This document shows positions 8,173 to 36,277 of a stretch of DNA of 36,277 nucleotides, piece after piece. This DNA comes from Actinomycetes bacterium. GTDB lineage: Bacteria; Actinomycetota; Actinomycetes; Jiangellales; Jiangellaceae. The stretch is taken from contig JAJYTA010000026.1 of the NCBI GenBank assembly GCA_021793295.1, forward strand, positions 1 through 36,277, given 5' to 3'. The position numbers were made by a program, and so were the translations under genes. A model generated the notes under the pieces. That model saw only the letters and a program-made list of their open reading frames with translations. It had not been told where the DNA came from and ran no database searches. The number at the start of each line of letters is the position of its first letter. The stretch's first letter is position 1.

Positions 8173-9192
8173 TCACGATCGGCGGGCCCGGTTGGCGATG
8201 TTGTCGAAGATCTTGCCGCCGGTCTCGGCGACGCTGTTCGCGACGTCGCGCAGCGTGCTGATCAGGGGGTCGGCGGTTCGGCTCCACGATTCCTGATACG
8301 ACTTCGCGGCGTTGCGGACCTCGTCGGAGATCGAGGCGTCGCGGTCGTCGGAGCGCCGAGGGTAGTCGCCGGCGAGAATGCGGCTGTACTCGCCGGAACC
8401 CGCCCAGCGATCGAGTTCGTCCAAGCGGATGACGGCGTGCGGGTGGGTGCGACCCATGAGGCTGAGCAGCTTGATCACCCCGTCGCGGGCATCCTCGGCC
8501 GCATCGTAGTCGCGCGCCTGCTCCTTGAACGCCGCCACGCTCATCTCGCCCAGGCGGGAGCCGCCGGCCAGCTTCATCAGCGCTCGCTTGGATGCCTCCG
8601 GATCCTGGGAGGCCAACAGCCCGGCGCGGTCACACGACAACTCCGACTTGCGGTGCCATTCCTCCAGCGCCAGGACGATGGCACGCAGGCCCATGTAGCC
8701 CAGCGGAATCCACGCCACCCGCAGGGCCAGACTGGTGAGCGCGAGGAGCAGGGTCCGGTAGACGGCATGACCGGACAGAATGTGCCCGACCTCGTGGCCG
8801 ATGGTGAACCGGCGTTCCTCGGCGTCGAGAAGGTCGAAGAGCCCGGTACTGATGACGATGAACGGCCGGTCGGAGCCGATCGCCATCGCTCGCGGGTAGG
8901 GGTCGGCGACCACGTAGAGCTCCGGCGTCTCGGGCAAGTCCAGGATGTGCGCGGCGTCGACGACGTCCTGGTGCACGTCGCGGAACTGCTGCTCGCCCAC
9001 GCGGACCGAGCCTGCGAGGAAGTGCAGGCGCAGACTGCGTTCGTTGAACAGCCCGGACATCTTCTTCAGCACCGTGTCGAACCCGCGCAGCGACCGCAGC
9101 GCCACCAGGGCGCCGCGGTCGGCTGGGTGTTCGTACGCCCGGGCGCTGATGCCGGGGAATCGGGTACGGCTGCGGTCGGGCTCGGTCGTCAT
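8173..9192 (-). CDS. M48-family metalloprotease (HtpX/Ste24-like)
   Basis: A 339-residue zinc metallopeptidase. The HEVGH motif (residues 133-137) supplies two zinc histidines and the catalytic glutamate, and E184 in SELSCDRAG is the third ligand. Hydrophobic stretches at about residues 145-178 could form one or two membrane helices between the motifs, as in other M48 proteins. The C-terminal 100 residues are polar and charged and lack recognisable features. M48 enzymes often degrade misfolded membrane proteins; that role is plausible here but not shown. The gene is a single unit convergent with nusB. A TACGAT hexamer lies 6 nt before its ATG, suggesting leaderless transcription, and there is no Shine-Dalgarno. 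Confidence 0.88.
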   Translation of the reverse strand: MTTEPDRSRTRFPGISARAYEHPADRGALVALRSLRGFDTVLKKMSGLFNERSLRLHFLAGSVRVGEQQFRDVHQDVVDAAHILDLPETPELYVVADPYPRAMAIGSDRPFIVISTGLFDLLDAEERRFTIGHEVGHILSGHAVYRTLLLALTSLALRVAWIPLGYMGLRAIVLALEEWHRKSELSCDRAGLLASQDPEASKRALMKLAGGSRLGEMSVAAFKEQARDYDAAEDARDGVIKLLSLMGRTHPHAVIRLDELDRWAGSGEYSRILAGDYPRRSDDRDASISDEVRNAAKSYQESWSRTADPLISTLRDVANSVAETGGKIFDNIANRARRS

Positions 9193-9250: not shown

Positions 9251-9330
9251 GCACCACCAGGCGTTGTGCTGCACCACCAGGCGTGTACGGGTGGTGCAGC
9301 AGGCAATCGCCAAGTGAACATGATCATTTG
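9251..9330. repeat. Intergenic repeat copy A with tandem GCACCACCAGGCGT and TGAACATGATCATTTG
   Basis: GCACCACCAGGCGT occurs twice in tandem at a 20-bp interval (from 9251 and from 9271). At 9315-9330 stands TGAACATGATCATTTG, which is repeated base for base at 35350-35365, where GCACCACCAG is also found nearby (35286). The 18-base blocks running from GGCA into TGAAC match at 12 of 18 positions without gaps in the two places. This looks like two decayed copies of one dispersed intergenic element. Confidence 0.65.
9268..9300 (-). terminator. Perfect 11-bp hairpin downstream of the subtilase gene
   Basis: GCTGCACCACC (9268-9278) and GGTGGTGCAGC (9290-9300) are exact inverted repeats around an 11-nt loop. 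The hairpin lies 44 bp past the subtilase stop and before the M48 promoter, so it could end subtilase transcripts. No T-run follows on the minus strand, so it may work as a 3'-end stabiliser or simply be part of the repeat element. Confidence 0.4.
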
Positions 9331-9343
9331 GAAGCTGTTCGGG

Positions 9344-12300
9344 CTAGTTGATCGCGACGGTGGTGTGGGTCGAACTGCCCTCGTAGGTGACCGTGCCCAG
9401 GTAGGGGAGGCTGTCGTCGAGGCCCTCGTAGGTGACGGTCACGGTTTCGGGTGTGCCACGGGTGCCCTGGATCGGATCCGGGGCGACGGTGGCGTTGCCG
9501 GCGGCCTCGGCGCCCACAGCGAAGTTGCGCAGGCTGAAATCGACCGGCGCACCGTCGGCGCTGGAGAACAGGTGCACCACGATGGCGTAGGTGCCCGCGG
9601 CCGGCTCGGTCAGATCCACTCGCTCGCTCGAGGCTCCGGTGGCGCCGTTCACCGCGAGTTGTTCGCCGTCCGGCCCGTACACGTACATGTCGTAGTCGGC
9701 GCCGTCGGAGCCTGAGACGAGATCGAACCGGGCGAGATCGGTGCCCTCGGGGACCTCGAACTCGACCGTCTGCGAGGACGTGTTCCCCTCGGGATCGGAC
9801 GGCTCGCCCGGGGTGAGCGTGCCATCGGTGACCACGCCGGGCACGAGCCCGGTCAACGCGACGTCGATGTCGCCGTCGGAGCCGGGCACCACGTCGTAGG
9901 TCAGTTCACCTGCGCTGCCGGTTCCGGTGACCTCGTCGGGCACCGCCACGGCCACGGGCTGCGCGACGATCGGACTGCGGACGGTCGTCCCACCACCGCT
10001 CCAGGTCAGCGTGCCCTGCGCGTACTCGTCGAGGGGTGCCGTGGTGCGGGTGAGCGTGACCTCGAATCGCTTCGTCTGCCCGGGCCGGCCGAGGTAGAGC
10101 ACGGACGGCGTGACCTCGGCATCGAAGCCGGGAACGTCGATGTCGGCCCGGTAGAGCCCCGGCGTCACCGCGGTGACCTCGCGAGTGATGACCTGTCGGC
10201 CCGCCAAGGCGCCCACGGCGATGGAGGCCTGGTTCAGGTCGGACGGGTCGATCGGCTCCACGCCGGGGATACCGGTTTCCTCACCGATGCCTTCGATGAA
10301 CGACAGCCAGTCGTCCGGTCCGGACTCGTAGACCAGGCCCGGGTCGAGGAACCTGGTCGGGTCGACGTGCCCGGCGCCGGAGTTGAAGCGGTCGGTGTCG
10401 GCGGACACGTCGACGCCGTCTGTGCTCTTGAGGTCGTATGCGGTGGTCATGAGCGCAGACTTGACCGCCATCGCCGACCAGCCCGGTTCGGCGCCGCGGA
10501 TCAGGGCAGCCAGGCCGGCCACGTGCGGCGAGGCCATCGACGTGCCGGAGAGGAAGCCGAAGTCGTTGTCGCCGCTCGGGCCCGGTGCCACACCGGCGAG
10601 TACGTCCACCCCCGGGGCGGCGACGTCGGGCTTGAGCACGTCGCCGCCGTTGGCCAACGCGGGCCCACGTGAGGAGAACCCGGCGATGACCGGCGTCGGC
10701 GTCGGCGGCAGGTCGGTCTGGTCGCCAGGCAGCAGCGCGGCGGTCGCCGCGCCGTCACCGGTGACGTAGTCGCGGATCACGTCGCCGTCGTCGGCTCCGA
10801 CGTGCGTGGTCGCGATGACGTGCAGGTCGGCATTGAGTCCTTCGGCCGGGTCGGTGTTGGCCAGGATCGATCCCGCGCCGCCGGCCCGGGCCACTTCGGC
10901 TGACTTGTCCACCCGCGCATGCACGCCCCGGTCACACAGGACGATCGCGCCGGCCGCCGCGGCGTCGTCGAGCGTGTCCGGGCCGCACAGTGCGGCCTCG
11001 GCCGGGTCGACGCCGTCGGCCGCGATGTCGCCGGCGTAGACCAGCGGGGTCTGCTCGGGCACGCCGGCGTCGTCGATCATCGAGCCGCGGAACCGCTGCC
11101 CGTCACCGAGCTCGACGGTGCCCTCGTAGACGGCGTGGGTGCTCGCACCGACCGAGGTGAGCCACGGGCTGTTGTGGGCCACGGTCGACGAGCCGGGCCC
11201 GCTGTTCCCCGCCGACGCGGCGACGAAGACGTTGGCCGAGGCCGCGGAGAGGAACGCCAGCTCCACCGGGTCCACCACCGTGTCGACAGCTCCGGAGATC
11301 GAGTAGTTGATGACGTCGACGCCGTCGAGCACCGCCTGATCGATGGCGGCGACCGAATCGGACGGGTAGCAACCGCCGGTGCTGGCGTCGTCGTCGTTCC
11401 AGCACACCTTGTACGCGGCGATCTTCGCGCCCGGCGCCATGCCGGAGCCGGTGCCGAACTCGCGGTCGTCGACCGACATCGCCACGTCGTGGTTGCCAGC
11501 AGCCGTGCTGGCCGTGTGGGTACCGTGCCCGTCGCCGTCACGGGTGGAGATCCGCTCGAACTCGTCCCGGTGCTCCGGTGGCACGTTGCTCACGAAGCCG
11601 TCCGGGAAGTAGCGCGCCGAGATCAGTTTGTCGTTACACAGATCGGCGGTCCACTCCTCGCCCGGCTCGCACTCGCCGGTGAACGTGTCGCCGTTCGCCT
11701 TGAGCATCGCGGTGCCGGTCTCGGACGTGCTGTACGGCTCGCCGACTTCGCCGGTGGGCTCGCTGGGCAGCTGCTCGCCGGCGAACGACGGGTTCTCGGG
11801 CCAGATCCCGGTGTCGATGACGCCCACGACCACGCCGTGTCCGGCCTCGGGGGCGCCACCGAGCTCCTGCCATACCCCGTCCGCACCGGACAGCCCGAGG
11901 AACTCCGGCGAGCTCACTGTGTCGACGTGGCGCGGCGTGTCCTTCACCACGGCCCGCACCCCTGGCGTGCGCTGCAGCGTCTGAGCCTGCTCGGCCGACA
12001 GCCGGGCGGAGAAGCCGTTGAGAGCCACCGTGTAGTGGTGGACCGGGTCGGCGCCGACGGCGTCGGCTACCTCCTCCTGCTGCTCGCGCAGGTGAGAGCG
12101 GTACGTGCGTACGGCTGCGGAGTCCGCGCGCAGGGTCTCGCCCGCAGCGGGTGCCGTGCGGCGCAACCCGCTCGTCGTGCCGTCGTAGGTCGCGGCCGGC
12201 TGCTCGCCGAGGATGACGATGTAGCCGCCGGCTGACAGCTCGTGTTCGACGGCGAGGCCGGCGCCGTCGATGACGGGCTCGGCGGCCGGCGCCGCACTAC

Positions 12301-12394
12301 CCGTGGCCAGGGCCGTGGCGAGGGCGAGCCCCACCGCGGCTGTGGCCGCGGTGAGCCGGGTGCGGTGGCGCGATCTGATCATCGGCAGCGACAC
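9344..12394 (-). CDS. Secreted subtilisin-like serine protease (S8) with PA and pre-peptidase C-terminal domains
   Basis: A 1016-residue exported protease. The GTG start is chosen because GGAGGAG lies 5 nt before it; an ATG four codons later is possible. A signal peptide (MIRSRHRTRLTAATAA then an alanine-rich core to about residue 38) is followed by an I9-type propeptide (near 55-155). The catalytic triad is D194 (VIDTGIWP), H290 (GDGHGTHTA) and S619 (GTSMASPHVAG), with oxyanion N397 (SAGNSGPG). The 220 residues between N397 and S619 contain a protease-associated domain, as in plant-type subtilases. After the catalytic part come a fibronectin-III-like region (about 720-820) and a pre-peptidase C-terminal-type beta-sandwich (about 870-970, with YDMYVYGPDG). 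The enzyme probably digests extracellular protein. Confidence 0.93.
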   Translation of the reverse strand: MSLPMIRSRHRTRLTAATAAVGLALATALATGSAAPAAEPVIDGAGLAVEHELSAGGYIVILGEQPAATYDGTTSGLRRTAPAAGETLRADSAAVRTYRSHLREQQEEVADAVGADPVHHYTVALNGFSARLSAEQAQTLQRTPGVRAVVKDTPRHVDTVSSPEFLGLSGADGVWQELGGAPEAGHGVVVGVIDTGIWPENPSFAGEQLPSEPTGEVGEPYSTSETGTAMLKANGDTFTGECEPGEEWTADLCNDKLISARYFPDGFVSNVPPEHRDEFERISTRDGDGHGTHTASTAAGNHDVAMSVDDREFGTGSGMAPGAKIAAYKVCWNDDDASTGGCYPSDSVAAIDQAVLDGVDVINYSISGAVDTVVDPVELAFLSAASANVFVAASAGNSGPGSSTVAHNSPWLTSVGASTHAVYEGTVELGDGQRFRGSMIDDAGVPEQTPLVYAGDIAADGVDPAEAALCGPDTLDDAAAAGAIVLCDRGVHARVDKSAEVARAGGAGSILANTDPAEGLNADLHVIATTHVGADDGDVIRDYVTGDGAATAALLPGDQTDLPPTPTPVIAGFSSRGPALANGGDVLKPDVAAPGVDVLAGVAPGPSGDNDFGFLSGTSMASPHVAGLAALIRGAEPGWSAMAVKSALMTTAYDLKSTDGVDVSADTDRFNSGAGHVDPTRFLDPGLVYESGPDDWLSFIEGIGEETGIPGVEPIDPSDLNQASIAVGALAGRQVITREVTAVTPGLYRADIDVPGFDAEVTPSVLYLGRPGQTKRFEVTLTRTTAPLDEYAQGTLTWSGGGTTVRSPIVAQPVAVAVPDEVTGTGSAGELTYDVVPGSDGDIDVALTGLVPGVVTDGTLTPGEPSDPEGNTSSQTVEFEVPEGTDLARFDLVSGSDGADYDMYVYGPDGEQLAVNGATGASSERVDLTEPAAGTYAIVVHLFSSADGAPVDFSLRNFAVGAEAAGNATVAPDPIQGTRGTPETVTVTYEGLDDSLPYLGTVTYEGSSTHTTVAIN

Positions 12395-12528
12395 GTGCGC
12401 TCCTCCAGGAGGGGTGAGAGCCGGACGATTTCCGGCGCACCGGGGCGGATGCTGTGGAAGATGCTGATCTGTCGCGAACCTGTCGTCAAGTCGCACCGCT
12501 GGTTTCCAGCCGTTCGGTCGACTGGCCC

Positions 12529-12577
12529 ATGACATCTGTCATGTCCTCCGCCTGAATCAGTCATATGAGGTGATGAC
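12529..12577. promoter_or_regulatory. Candidate operator: four ATGAC half-sites between the subtilase and ABC exporter genes
   Basis: CATGACATCTGTCATG (12528-12543) is a perfect 16-bp palindrome apart from its 2-bp centre. A second inverted pair, GTCAT (12560-12564) and ATGAC (12573-12577), follows. The centres lie about 33 bp apart, near three helical turns. The gap between the divergent genes is 266 bp. A dimeric regulator, perhaps the LuxR-type protein encoded at 15764, could bind both sites; the assignment is inference. Confidence 0.45.
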
Positions 12578-34605: not shown

Positions 34606-34827
34606 GTGGCCGAGAAGTTGGTAAAGGGCGCGCGGATCAGTGGGGGGCAGCGTGACAAGCTCGCCTCTGACCTGAAGAAGAAGTACGAAAGCGGTCGGAG
34701 TATCCGCGAGCTCGCGGCCGAGACCGGACGTTCCTATGGGTTCGTCCACCGGGTTCTCTCCGAGTCCGGGGTCAATCTACGTGGCCGCGGAGGGGCCACA
34801 CGGGGTAAGGCGAAGAAGAAGTCCTGA
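34606..34827 (+). CDS. Small helix-turn-helix protein (Rv1473A-like)
   Basis: The GTG at 34606 is chosen because GGGAGGA (34596-34602) precedes it and the product begins MAEKLVKGARISGGQRDKL; an in-frame ATG at 34579 or TTG at 34567 would add up to 13 less conserved residues. The 73-residue protein has a clear helix-turn-helix: YESGRSIRELAAETGRSYGF then VHRVLSESG, followed by a glycine/arginine/lysine tail (LRGRGGATRGKAKKKS) that may touch the DNA backbone. It resembles mycobacterial Rv1473A by recollection of its pattern. It probably binds DNA; target genes are unknown. Confidence 0.88.
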   Translation: MAEKLVKGARISGGQRDKLASDLKKKYESGRSIRELAAETGRSYGFVHRVLSESGVNLRGRGGATRGKAKKKS

Positions 34828-34844: not shown

Positions 34845-35446
34845 GAGATGCCGGGGGAAGGGTGGCCTCCGTACTCTCGATCTCACCACCGCGAGCGAGC
34901 AATACCGGAGTGCGCGGCCCCGGACGCGCAGCCTCGCACATCTGCGTGCGAGAGGTGCTCATCGGTCCCTGTCGGACCATGAGTCGCGGGGGTGGATTTC
35001 GAGTGATCGAAACTCGATGTCCGGGGCCTCTTTGAGCGCAGATCATGATCATCGGCCAGGCGGTCCGAGCTTGGCATTCCCGGCGAATCGCCGTGATTCT
35101 CGCCGGTATGTTGATGATCTTGATTTGTGTCGGAGCCGAGTTCCGTCAGTACCTTCGCGCCGTCACGCGCATTGAGTGCGGCGTAGCAGTCGGCTGGACA
35201 GCGGCCGCAACCTCAGCCCAGGGCGAAGTGCGCCCAAAAAATGATCATGATCGGTGGCGCTATGAGATGTGACAGCGCCAATGGTGCACCACCAGCCTTT
35301 CTGTCGCGGCAACAGGCTTACGGGCATGGTGGAGGTGGCATTTCCCTGCTGAACATGATCATTTGACCGTCTGGCCGGGAAGAAAGCGACGGTCGAGGAC
35401 GTTGTCGGCTCGGAGTAGCCGTCAACTTCTGAGGAGGTCGCCGCCG
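34828..35446. other. 619-bp spacer rich in ATGATCATG-type palindromes
   Basis: No convincing gene is seen. The stretch is less GC-rich than its flanks. It contains TTTCGA-GTGA-TCGAAA (34997-35012, a 6-bp stem with a GNRA-type loop), GATCATGATCAT (35041-35052), ATGATCATGATC in reverse orientation near 35241, GGGCG-AAGTG-CGCCC followed by six A (from 35221), and TGAACATGATCATTTG (35350-35365). A 75-codon frame at 35045-35272 with a short hydrophobic run is open but lacks a ribosome site. The last 80 bp lead into GAGGAGGT, the ribosome site of the next gene. Confidence 0.6.
35237..35365. repeat. Intergenic repeat copy B, flanked by inverted AAATGATCATG
   Basis: AAATGATCATG near 35239 and its reverse complement CATGATCATTT (35354-35364) bound a ~129-bp segment. 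Within lie GCACCACCAG (35286) and, at the end, TGAACATGATCATTTG, both shared with copy A at 9251-9330. The common features and equal spacing in the last 34 bases suggest one element family. Confidence 0.55.
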
Positions 35447-36277
35447 GTGTCGATGGGCGGGGCGTGGATGGCGTCCAGGTCGTTCTCGCGCGATCGGTCC
35501 GTGACCGATCAGCGCCTGGCGGCGGGCACCACGAAGCGAGTGATCAGCTATGCGCGCCCGTACCGGTTCCAAATGGCCGTCTTCCTGGCGACGACGGTCG
35601 CCGCGGCGGCGTCGGCGGCTGCGGTCCCGCTGCTGCTGAAGGTCCTGATCGACAGCGGCGTCAGCCAGGGAGACCGCCGCGTGGTGGTCTGGGCCGCTTC
35701 GGCGGTGGCAGCACTGGCGGTGGTCGACGCCGTGCTTGGCGTCGTCGGGCGTTGGATGTCCGCGCGCGTCGGGGAGGGGCTGATCTTCGATCTGCGCCGG
35801 CAGATCTTCGATCACGTTCAACGACAACCGATCGCGTTCTTCACCCGGACCCAGACCGGGTCGCTGGTCTCGCGTCTCAACAGCGACGTCATCGGCGCCC
35901 AACAGGCGTTCACCGGGACGCTGTCCCAGGTCGTCAGCAACGTGGTGACCCTGGTGCTCGCGCTCGGCGCGATGATCGTGCTGTCGTGGCAGATCACCCT
36001 CGTCGTGCTGGTCCTGGTCCCGCTGTTCCTGCTGCCCGCGCGCGTGATCGGGCGCAAGCTTGCCGACATCACCCGGCAGTCGATGCAACTCAACGCTCAG
36101 TTGAGCCAGACCATGACGGAGCGTTTCAACGTCTCCGGCGCGCTGCTGGTCAAGATCTTCGGACGCTACGAGGCCGAGAACGACGAGTTCGGCCGGGCCG
36201 CGGGCCGGGTACGCGACATCGGCGTGATCCAGGCGCTGTACGCGCGGTACTTCTTCCTCGGCCTGACCTTCCTGGCC
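35447..36277 (+). CDS. ABC exporter, N-terminal transmembrane part (3' end cut by window)
   Basis: The frame from GTG 35447 runs open to the last base (277 codons); GAGGAGGT (35431-35438) lies 8 nt before it. After a polar start (MSMGGAWMASRSFSRDRS) come membrane helices at about residues 45-65 (MAVFLATTVAAAASAAAVPL), 80-105 and 160-190. EGLIFDLRRQIFDHVQRQP, FFTRTQTGSLVSRLNSD and LSQTMTERFNVSGALLVKIF are typical of the MsbA-like ABC type 1 exporter transmembrane domain. The fused ATPase domain should follow beyond the window. The cargo cannot be told. Confidence 0.9.
   Translation, partial: MSMGGAWMASRSFSRDRSVTDQRLAAGTTKRVISYARPYRFQMAVFLATTVAAAASAAAVPLLLKVLIDSGVSQGDRRVVVWAASAVAALAVVDAVLGVVGRWMSARVGEGLIFDLRRQIFDHVQRQPIAFFTRTQTGSLVSRLNSDVIGAQQAFTGTLSQVVSNVVTLVLALGAMIVLSWQITLVVLVLVPLFLLPARVIGRKLADITRQSMQLNAQLSQTMTERFNVSGALLVKIFGRYEAENDEFGRAAGRVRDIGVIQALYARYFFLGLTFLA

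Follow-up and report, generated by a model that had tools for sequence, protein, structure and literature searches.

We found that an actinomycete genome of the family Jiangellaceae carries about 103 copies of a palindromic intergenic element of about 80 bp, mostly oriented with one end towards gene 3' ends, together with a single gene that lies between two copies of the element and encodes a protein with an AbiEi-like N-terminal region and a nuclease-like C-terminal region. The element family has defined ends, carries words specific to each genome and co-occurs with the gene in the host family, and genes bracketed by palindromes recur in other actinomycete families. The association between the element and the gene is strong, and we consider it fairly probable that the two form a REPtron-like system, in which the element is the dispersed and non-autonomous part and one bracketed gene per genome, unrelated to the RAYT transposase of REPtrons, is the other. 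Two copies lie in the window, i.e., the whole stretch of DNA analysed here (36,277 nt, contig JAJYTA010000026.1; Table 1).

Table 1. Positions of the element copies and adjoining genes in the window
Feature	Position	Strand	Score
Copy 1, 80-bp palindromic element, best-scoring in the genome	9251..9330	+	102.8 bits, 80-nt model
62-bp quasi-palindrome of copy 1 (columns 5-66, symmetry centre i+j=71)	9255..9316	+	
14-nt tail of copy 1, AACATGATCATTTG, end facing a gene's stop codon	9317..9330	+	
Reported 16-mer in copy 1	9315..9330	+	
Subtilase-family (Peptidase_S8) gene, stop codon 13 nt beyond the tail of copy 1	9344..12535	-	
Peptidase_M48 gene, start 58 nt from the other end of copy 1	8173..9192	-	
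Copy 2 of the element	35286..35365	+	59.6 bits, 80-nt model
Reported 16-mer in copy 2	35350..35365	+	
Gene for an ABC transporter transmembrane protein, truncated at the contig end, downstream of copy 2	35447..36277	+	

A palindromic element dispersed at gene 3' ends

The sequence-only reading of the window had pointed to an exact 16-mer, TGAACATGATCATTTG, at two sites and had judged it unlikely to occur by chance. Both sites were confirmed, and the window holds four matches at up to three mismatches (one being the reverse reading of copy 1), against a mean of 0.05 and a maximum of 1 in 100 dinucleotide-preserving shuffles. The upstream sequence that the two sites were said to share, GCACCACCAG, is found 64 nt upstream in both copies (at 9251 and 35286; direct reading).

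The suggestion that the two sites belong to a dispersed intergenic element family held in the whole genome (G000). Allowing one mismatch, GAACATGATCATTTG was found at 81 sites, while the reversed-pattern control gave none, and the 20-mer CAAGTGAACATGATCATTTG occurred 12 times. Allowing up to two mismatches gave 84 rows. Once rows whose flanks were too short and the matches in L017, L066, L068 and L077, which are not elements, had been set aside, 78 remained, and 77 were aligned without a gap over 80 columns, leaving out the reverse reading of the palindromic L035 copy. This alignment gave the ends of the element, with no conserved sequence outside the 80 columns beyond a base bias on the tail side; part of the conservation seen in the last 15 columns reflects the search itself, since that pattern was used to find the copies. 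A covariance model gave 105 matches, two of them reverse readings, hence about 103 copies (a count resting on 150 of 3842 candidates scored), and all matches other than the two reverse readings were full length (1-80). Thus, the two sites in the window are not an isolated pair, because the copies far exceed two and their flanks are similar over 80 nt.

The element consists of a 62-bp quasi-palindrome and a 14-nt tail, and the 16-mer marks one end. Among the 24 symmetry centres tested, pairing was maximal at i+j=71 (65% of cells in A1 and 67% in A3), and the next-best centre paired 54% and 57% of cells, respectively. Covariation across the element centre was weak within the genome (14 of 500 shuffles reached it) and stronger across genomes, where relatedness can inflate the value, and the highest mutual information within the genome was between adjacent columns. 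By eye, the element is built of CAnnAnnC boxes and their complement. These boxes, together with the adjacent-column mutual information, suit dyad protein binding more than a constrained RNA. The dyads agree with one earlier guess, that of a protein-binding site, which holds in part. The other guess, a decayed transposable repeat, also stands in part: the element resembles a small non-autonomous repeat, but "decayed" misfits most copies, which are full length.

Neither an insertion event nor a target-site duplication was found at the elements (at best 6 of 76 copies over all offsets and lengths tried, versus 2.0 expected). GTAG is absent from either strand of the 80-column consensus, and Rfam gave no match at gathering thresholds over the window and four loci. 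An RNA hairpin was considered and rejected: RNAalifold gave three pairs, and the first register (i+j=68) had no support, its pairing being no better than in shuffles. Peptide coding was also rejected, since by eye the variable columns have no three-base period. In L253 and L268, ATGATCATG stands at both ends of the element; these two loci, both of G010, are the only clear cases of two-ended elements in genus g6. A symmetric, two-tailed copy with ATGATCATG at both ends, like those of G010, was noticed in L035 (G000:C290:1664-1753), and inverted pairs of element copies recur in the match lists.

Of the 72 copies with enough flank in the genome of the window, 48 have their tail no more than 25 nt from the stop codon of a gene that reads towards it; in G001 this holds for 24 of 45 copies. 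The non-tail end lies as close to a stop codon in 10 of 72 and 5 of 45 copies, respectively, and random intergenic points from the same loci do so in 215 of 3500 (6%) and 188 of 2250 cases; genes in this comparison were called by open frame and codon-position GC alone. The stop codon is often inside the tail of the element (-7, -3, -2). By eye, the adjoining genes are ordinary and unrelated to each other. Between stop codon and element, 6-15 nt past the tail, the gene-sense strand in the window's genome was noted to be C-rich and G-poor, and CCCCG often precedes the element in G256; an insertion preference or a Rho-type site is a possible explanation for both.

Copy 1 fits this pattern with the subtilase stop codon just past its tail, while copy 2 departs from it, with no adjoining gene 3' end found. 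Copy 2 is also the most diverged copy and, one reverse reading aside, the lowest-scoring full-length copy in the genome. Upstream of copy 2 lies a small HTH_58 helix-turn-helix gene (34606-34824), and the intergenic region of copy 2 holds two isolated TGATCATGATCA-type dyads (35041-35054 and 35236-35254), which are possibly remnants of element ends.

Distribution of the element in the host family

The first model matched 17 of 22 genomes of the host family and none of 38 genomes outside it. A family-wide model matched 17 of 20 further family genomes, eight of them with at least 150 copies; the scans scored no more than 78 or 150 candidates in each genome, and counts of 78 and 150 here and below are lower bounds. 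It found 1, 4 and 5 copies in G008, G015 and G004, respectively, and none in G017, G018 and G021, which belong to a genus that has elements. A second palindromic family of about 52-56 bp, with ends like CCATGATCATC...GATGATCATGG, was observed in other family genomes (L226 ~1163-1215, L247 ~2632-2684, L258 ~1441-1490, L274 ~2639-2691 and L271 ~967-1010), and also in G017, G018 and G021. This shorter family shares the ATGATCAT end motif with the first.

By eye, columns 39-72 hold words peculiar to each genome. Seven of 46 loci of G001 share a neighbouring gene end with one of the 78 copies of G000 that were compared, and by eye the copies at these seven shared gene ends carry the words of their own genomes. 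Simple insertion does not account for this; existing copies may have been replaced or converted. Occupancy of orthologous gene ends was followed at two loci. A copy lies at the NDH-2 gene end in G000, G001 and G005, and none was seen by eye in the approximately 150 nt examined at ten other family orthologs. Beside the DNA ligase gene, a copy is present in G007, the model matches in G019 and G020, and an element-like tail is visible by eye in G009, while the spacer examined has no copy in G000, G001, G013, G015, G016, G017, G018 and G021, and the locus of G003 has no model match.

Beyond cellular genomes, 15 stretches of viral contigs matched the pattern, none of them a relative, and seven plasmid records gave distant matches only. 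A 17-mer scan of genome contigs returned 14 records from unrelated organisms with one match each, which were taken as chance.

A gene bracketed by copies of the element

In the genome of the window, a gene for a protein of about 320 residues (G000:C200:22737-23684), on a different contig from the window, lies between two copies of the element with their tails pointing outward. The same gene is bracketed by two of the four copies in G015, and lies beside or between copies in G007, G020, G000, G001, G010 and G014. Of the 22 family genomes, 15 each have one close ortholog (53-100% identity); the remaining matches share 29-44% identity. Tail-out copies stand on both sides of the gene in 14 of the 15 orthologs and on one side in G001; G002 shows weak bracketing, and G014 a partial match on one of its two sides. 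Inverted repeats of 37-80 nt with 86-100% identity join both flanks in 14 of 15 orthologs. Among 15 paralog loci, none has an element match at E 0.01, and the longest flanking inverted repeat is 36 nt. In the loci read, the gene stands alone between its two elements. A composite transposon was considered for inverted pairs about 1 kb apart and was rejected, since L060, L163 and L169 have ordinary genes between the elements; the inverted pairs L199 and L208 enclose the AbiEi/nuclease gene.

The number of element copies is higher with the gene than without it (Mann-Whitney p=4e-4, relatedness ignored): at least 100 copies were found in 12 of 15 genomes with the gene versus none of seven without (Fisher p=7e-4, relatedness ignored), in a comparison that mixes model R1 (G000 and G001) with model R2 (other genomes). 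In G015 the gene is truncated, and the genome has only four copies. Copies also occur without the gene in G011 (87), G012 (21) and G004 (5); loss of the gene would explain those in G011 and G012, which count against strict dependence. In the four genomes compared, the bracketing copies match the dispersed copies of their own genome best over columns 39-72 (0.84-0.92, versus 0.57-0.76 for other genomes), and the bracketing copies of G007 match the dispersed copies of G003 equally (0.85, n=2).

Eight genomes share one gene locus on both sides, and at least three different flanking contexts occur overall. From the shared locus it appears that the gene itself does not hop often. Relative to the other six genomes of this locus, G007 and G013 have the gene turned around in place, though their closest relatives in the protein tree, G003 and G019, do not; the cassette thus seems to have flipped at least twice. 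Comparison of L300 and L308 with L306 showed an in-place inversion consistent with recombination between the two flanking elements.

All 29 proteins aligned match the PADLOC AbiEi model, with matches covering residues 4-206 of the protein from the window's genome, and 26 of 29 match Pfam AbiEi_4 at E up to 1. Sixteen positions are invariant in the 29 sequences, among them E207, D239, E250, D252, G253, K256, Y257, E274, R277, E278 and R290, and the motif E250-x-D-G-x-x-K256 is conserved throughout. As in PD-(D/E)XK nucleases, E207, D239, E250 and K256 would be the catalytic residues, as the conservation pattern suggests. Pfam DUF559 matched weakly (3 of 29 proteins, best E 0.033), and the alignment profile matched, over 231 columns and with 99.2% probability, a protein annotated as DUF559; that protein itself passes the DUF559 cut-off. 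DUF559 is a family that we take to belong to the PD-(D/E)XK group. The best PDB profile match had an E value of only 0.5, NCBIfam gave nothing meaningful for the protein, and PHROGs gave no match. From the conserved residues and the weak Pfam matches, we call the C-terminal region nuclease-like.

In the protein tree, which included 12 of the 15 paralogs (L324, L327 and L329 were left out), the bracketed proteins and the homologs from outside the family are separated from the 12 unbracketed paralogs (95/94). Support for a group of the 15 bracketed family proteins is weak (90/30).

Across the class (393 genomes), 48 genomes carry a homolog at E 1e-45, including 33 that do not belong to the family. 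Inverted repeats of 23-78 nt flank the gene at 10 of 15 outside loci, exceeding the 36-nt maximum of the paralog control at eight and measuring 23 and 27 nt at the other two. L342 has a 68-nt direct repeat, L343 a 19-nt repeat, and L334, L339 and L340 have no convincing flanking inverted repeats. By eye, the outer motif TGA[T/C]CACGT is common to several of the outside palindromes. A joined query of nine repeats, in which one palindrome may be counted in both readings, gave 43 matches in G048, 18 in G077, 26 in G168, 47 in G133, 58 in G256, 28 in G053, 3 in G265, 51 in G222 and 64 in G070, and none in five control genomes without a close homolog. Among the matches listed, each outside genome matched its own repeat. 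The palindromes are therefore dispersed in eight of the nine genomes tested (18-64 matches); the three matches in G265 comprise the flanking pair and one other. Of 39 copies from three outside genomes (chosen among the best-scoring matches; L386 of the original 40 was left out), 24 lie 3' of a gene in the gene sense (12/20, 8/13 and 4/6), with stop codons from 108 nt before to 4 nt inside the element start, 22 of them within 50 nt.

A candidate partnership and its alternatives

The MIRU of mycobacteria, likened to the present element by description only, is also an intergenic repeat of actinobacteria; it has a similar length, can provide stop codons and is not known to have a bracketed partner gene. 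A closer likeness is to REP/RAYT systems, for which the available text of PMC8049555, PMC8266576 and PMC3733652 describes many palindromes, one single-copy, vertically inherited and flanked gene, and a copy number tied to that gene; in this literature, REP repeats have a single type of partner enzyme, the RAYT transposase. Like such REPtrons, the present system has many short palindromic intergenic copies per genome, a single-copy gene flanked by inverted copies, and more repeats where the gene is present. Unlike them, its partner is AbiEi-like and PD-(D/E)XK-like, no GTAG tag stands beside the hairpin, and the repeat, at about 80 bp, is strongly oriented towards gene 3' ends. Because the defining Y1 (HUH) transposase (PF01797) was not found in any of 22 genomes (14 from the family and eight others; control genomes were positive in 5 of 14), the system is not filed as RAYT. 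The available text of PMC3733652 also describes TIRtrons, in which long inverted repeats, some belonging to moderately abundant families, surround a gene, and CGTC-tagged REPs, palindromic repeats without a known transposase. The present gene likewise lies between long inverted repeats and its palindromes have no known transposase, but the candidate partner is of another type than the tyrosine transposases that TIRtrons encode, and there is no CGTC tag. The N-terminal region of the protein recalls the AbiE type IV toxin-antitoxin system, from which the nuclease-like C-terminal region, the dispersed repeats and, in the loci read, the lone position of the gene between its elements set it apart.

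We infer that the partner protein mobilises the elements through binding, cutting and copying. The AbiEi-like part would bind the dyad half-sites of the palindrome (the CAnnAnnC boxes), the nuclease-like part would cut at the element, possibly when it forms an extruded or single-stranded hairpin, and repair or copying would then seed new copies, preferentially just downstream of stop codons and with the tail facing the gene. Since AbiEi binds inverted repeats in its own promoter, according to the available text of PMC3985639, recognition by the N-terminal part is plausible.

The same property of AbiEi, the match of all 29 proteins to the AbiEi model, the stop codons inside the tail and the strong gene-3'-end placement would also suit a repressor or nucleoid-type DNA-binding protein whose operators or regulatory 3'-end sites (for termination or mRNA stability) were spread by selection or recombination. 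We regard this as unlikely, since the C-terminal region conserves a nuclease-like set of invariant E/D/E/K, genomes have about 100 to at least 150 copies while none was found in G017, G018 and G021 of a genus with elements, the neighbouring genes are unrelated by eye, and so few gene ends are occupied in both G000 and G001. That the elements are ordinary MITEs of an unrelated transposase, with the AbiEi/nuclease gene merely inside one lucky pair, is improbable. The element is indeed palindromic and sharp-ended with no evident coding capacity, and G011 and G012 have copies although they lack the gene; against this, all 15 orthologs have an element on at least one side in at least three flanking contexts, bracketing recurs with different palindromes in other families, the 22 genomes have no Y1 transposase (the sole transposase family searched), and, unlike in a MITE of a DDE transposon, target-site duplications are lacking.

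A structured RNA or transcription terminator in 3' UTRs seems very improbable. A quasi-palindrome can form a hairpin, and the gene-sense placement close to stop codons is what such a role would call for, but the window and four loci have no Rfam match, the first register pairs no better than shuffles, covariation in the better register is only slightly above shuffles within one genome, mutual information is strongest between adjacent columns, and the bracketed gene is left unexplained.

We therefore prefer the REPtron-like partnership, and the pairing of a repeat with an AbiEi/nuclease gene was not described in the open-access titles and abstract starts searched (preprints and most subscription journals lay outside this scope). 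For the class as a whole, we tentatively propose that a domesticated AbiEi-like PD-(D/E)XK nuclease, and no transposase, may place copies of the palindrome it recognises at gene 3' ends. Transcription termination may guide this copying, and the palindrome would have evolved separately in each lineage. A REPtron-like architecture built on an unrelated nuclease-like protein would mean that such partnerships evolved more than once, and would name a source of intergenic repeats in actinobacteria. The protein itself would be a new enzyme that recognises and perhaps copies DNA and inherently prefers gene ends, and some of the proteins now annotated as AbiEi antitoxins could be recast.
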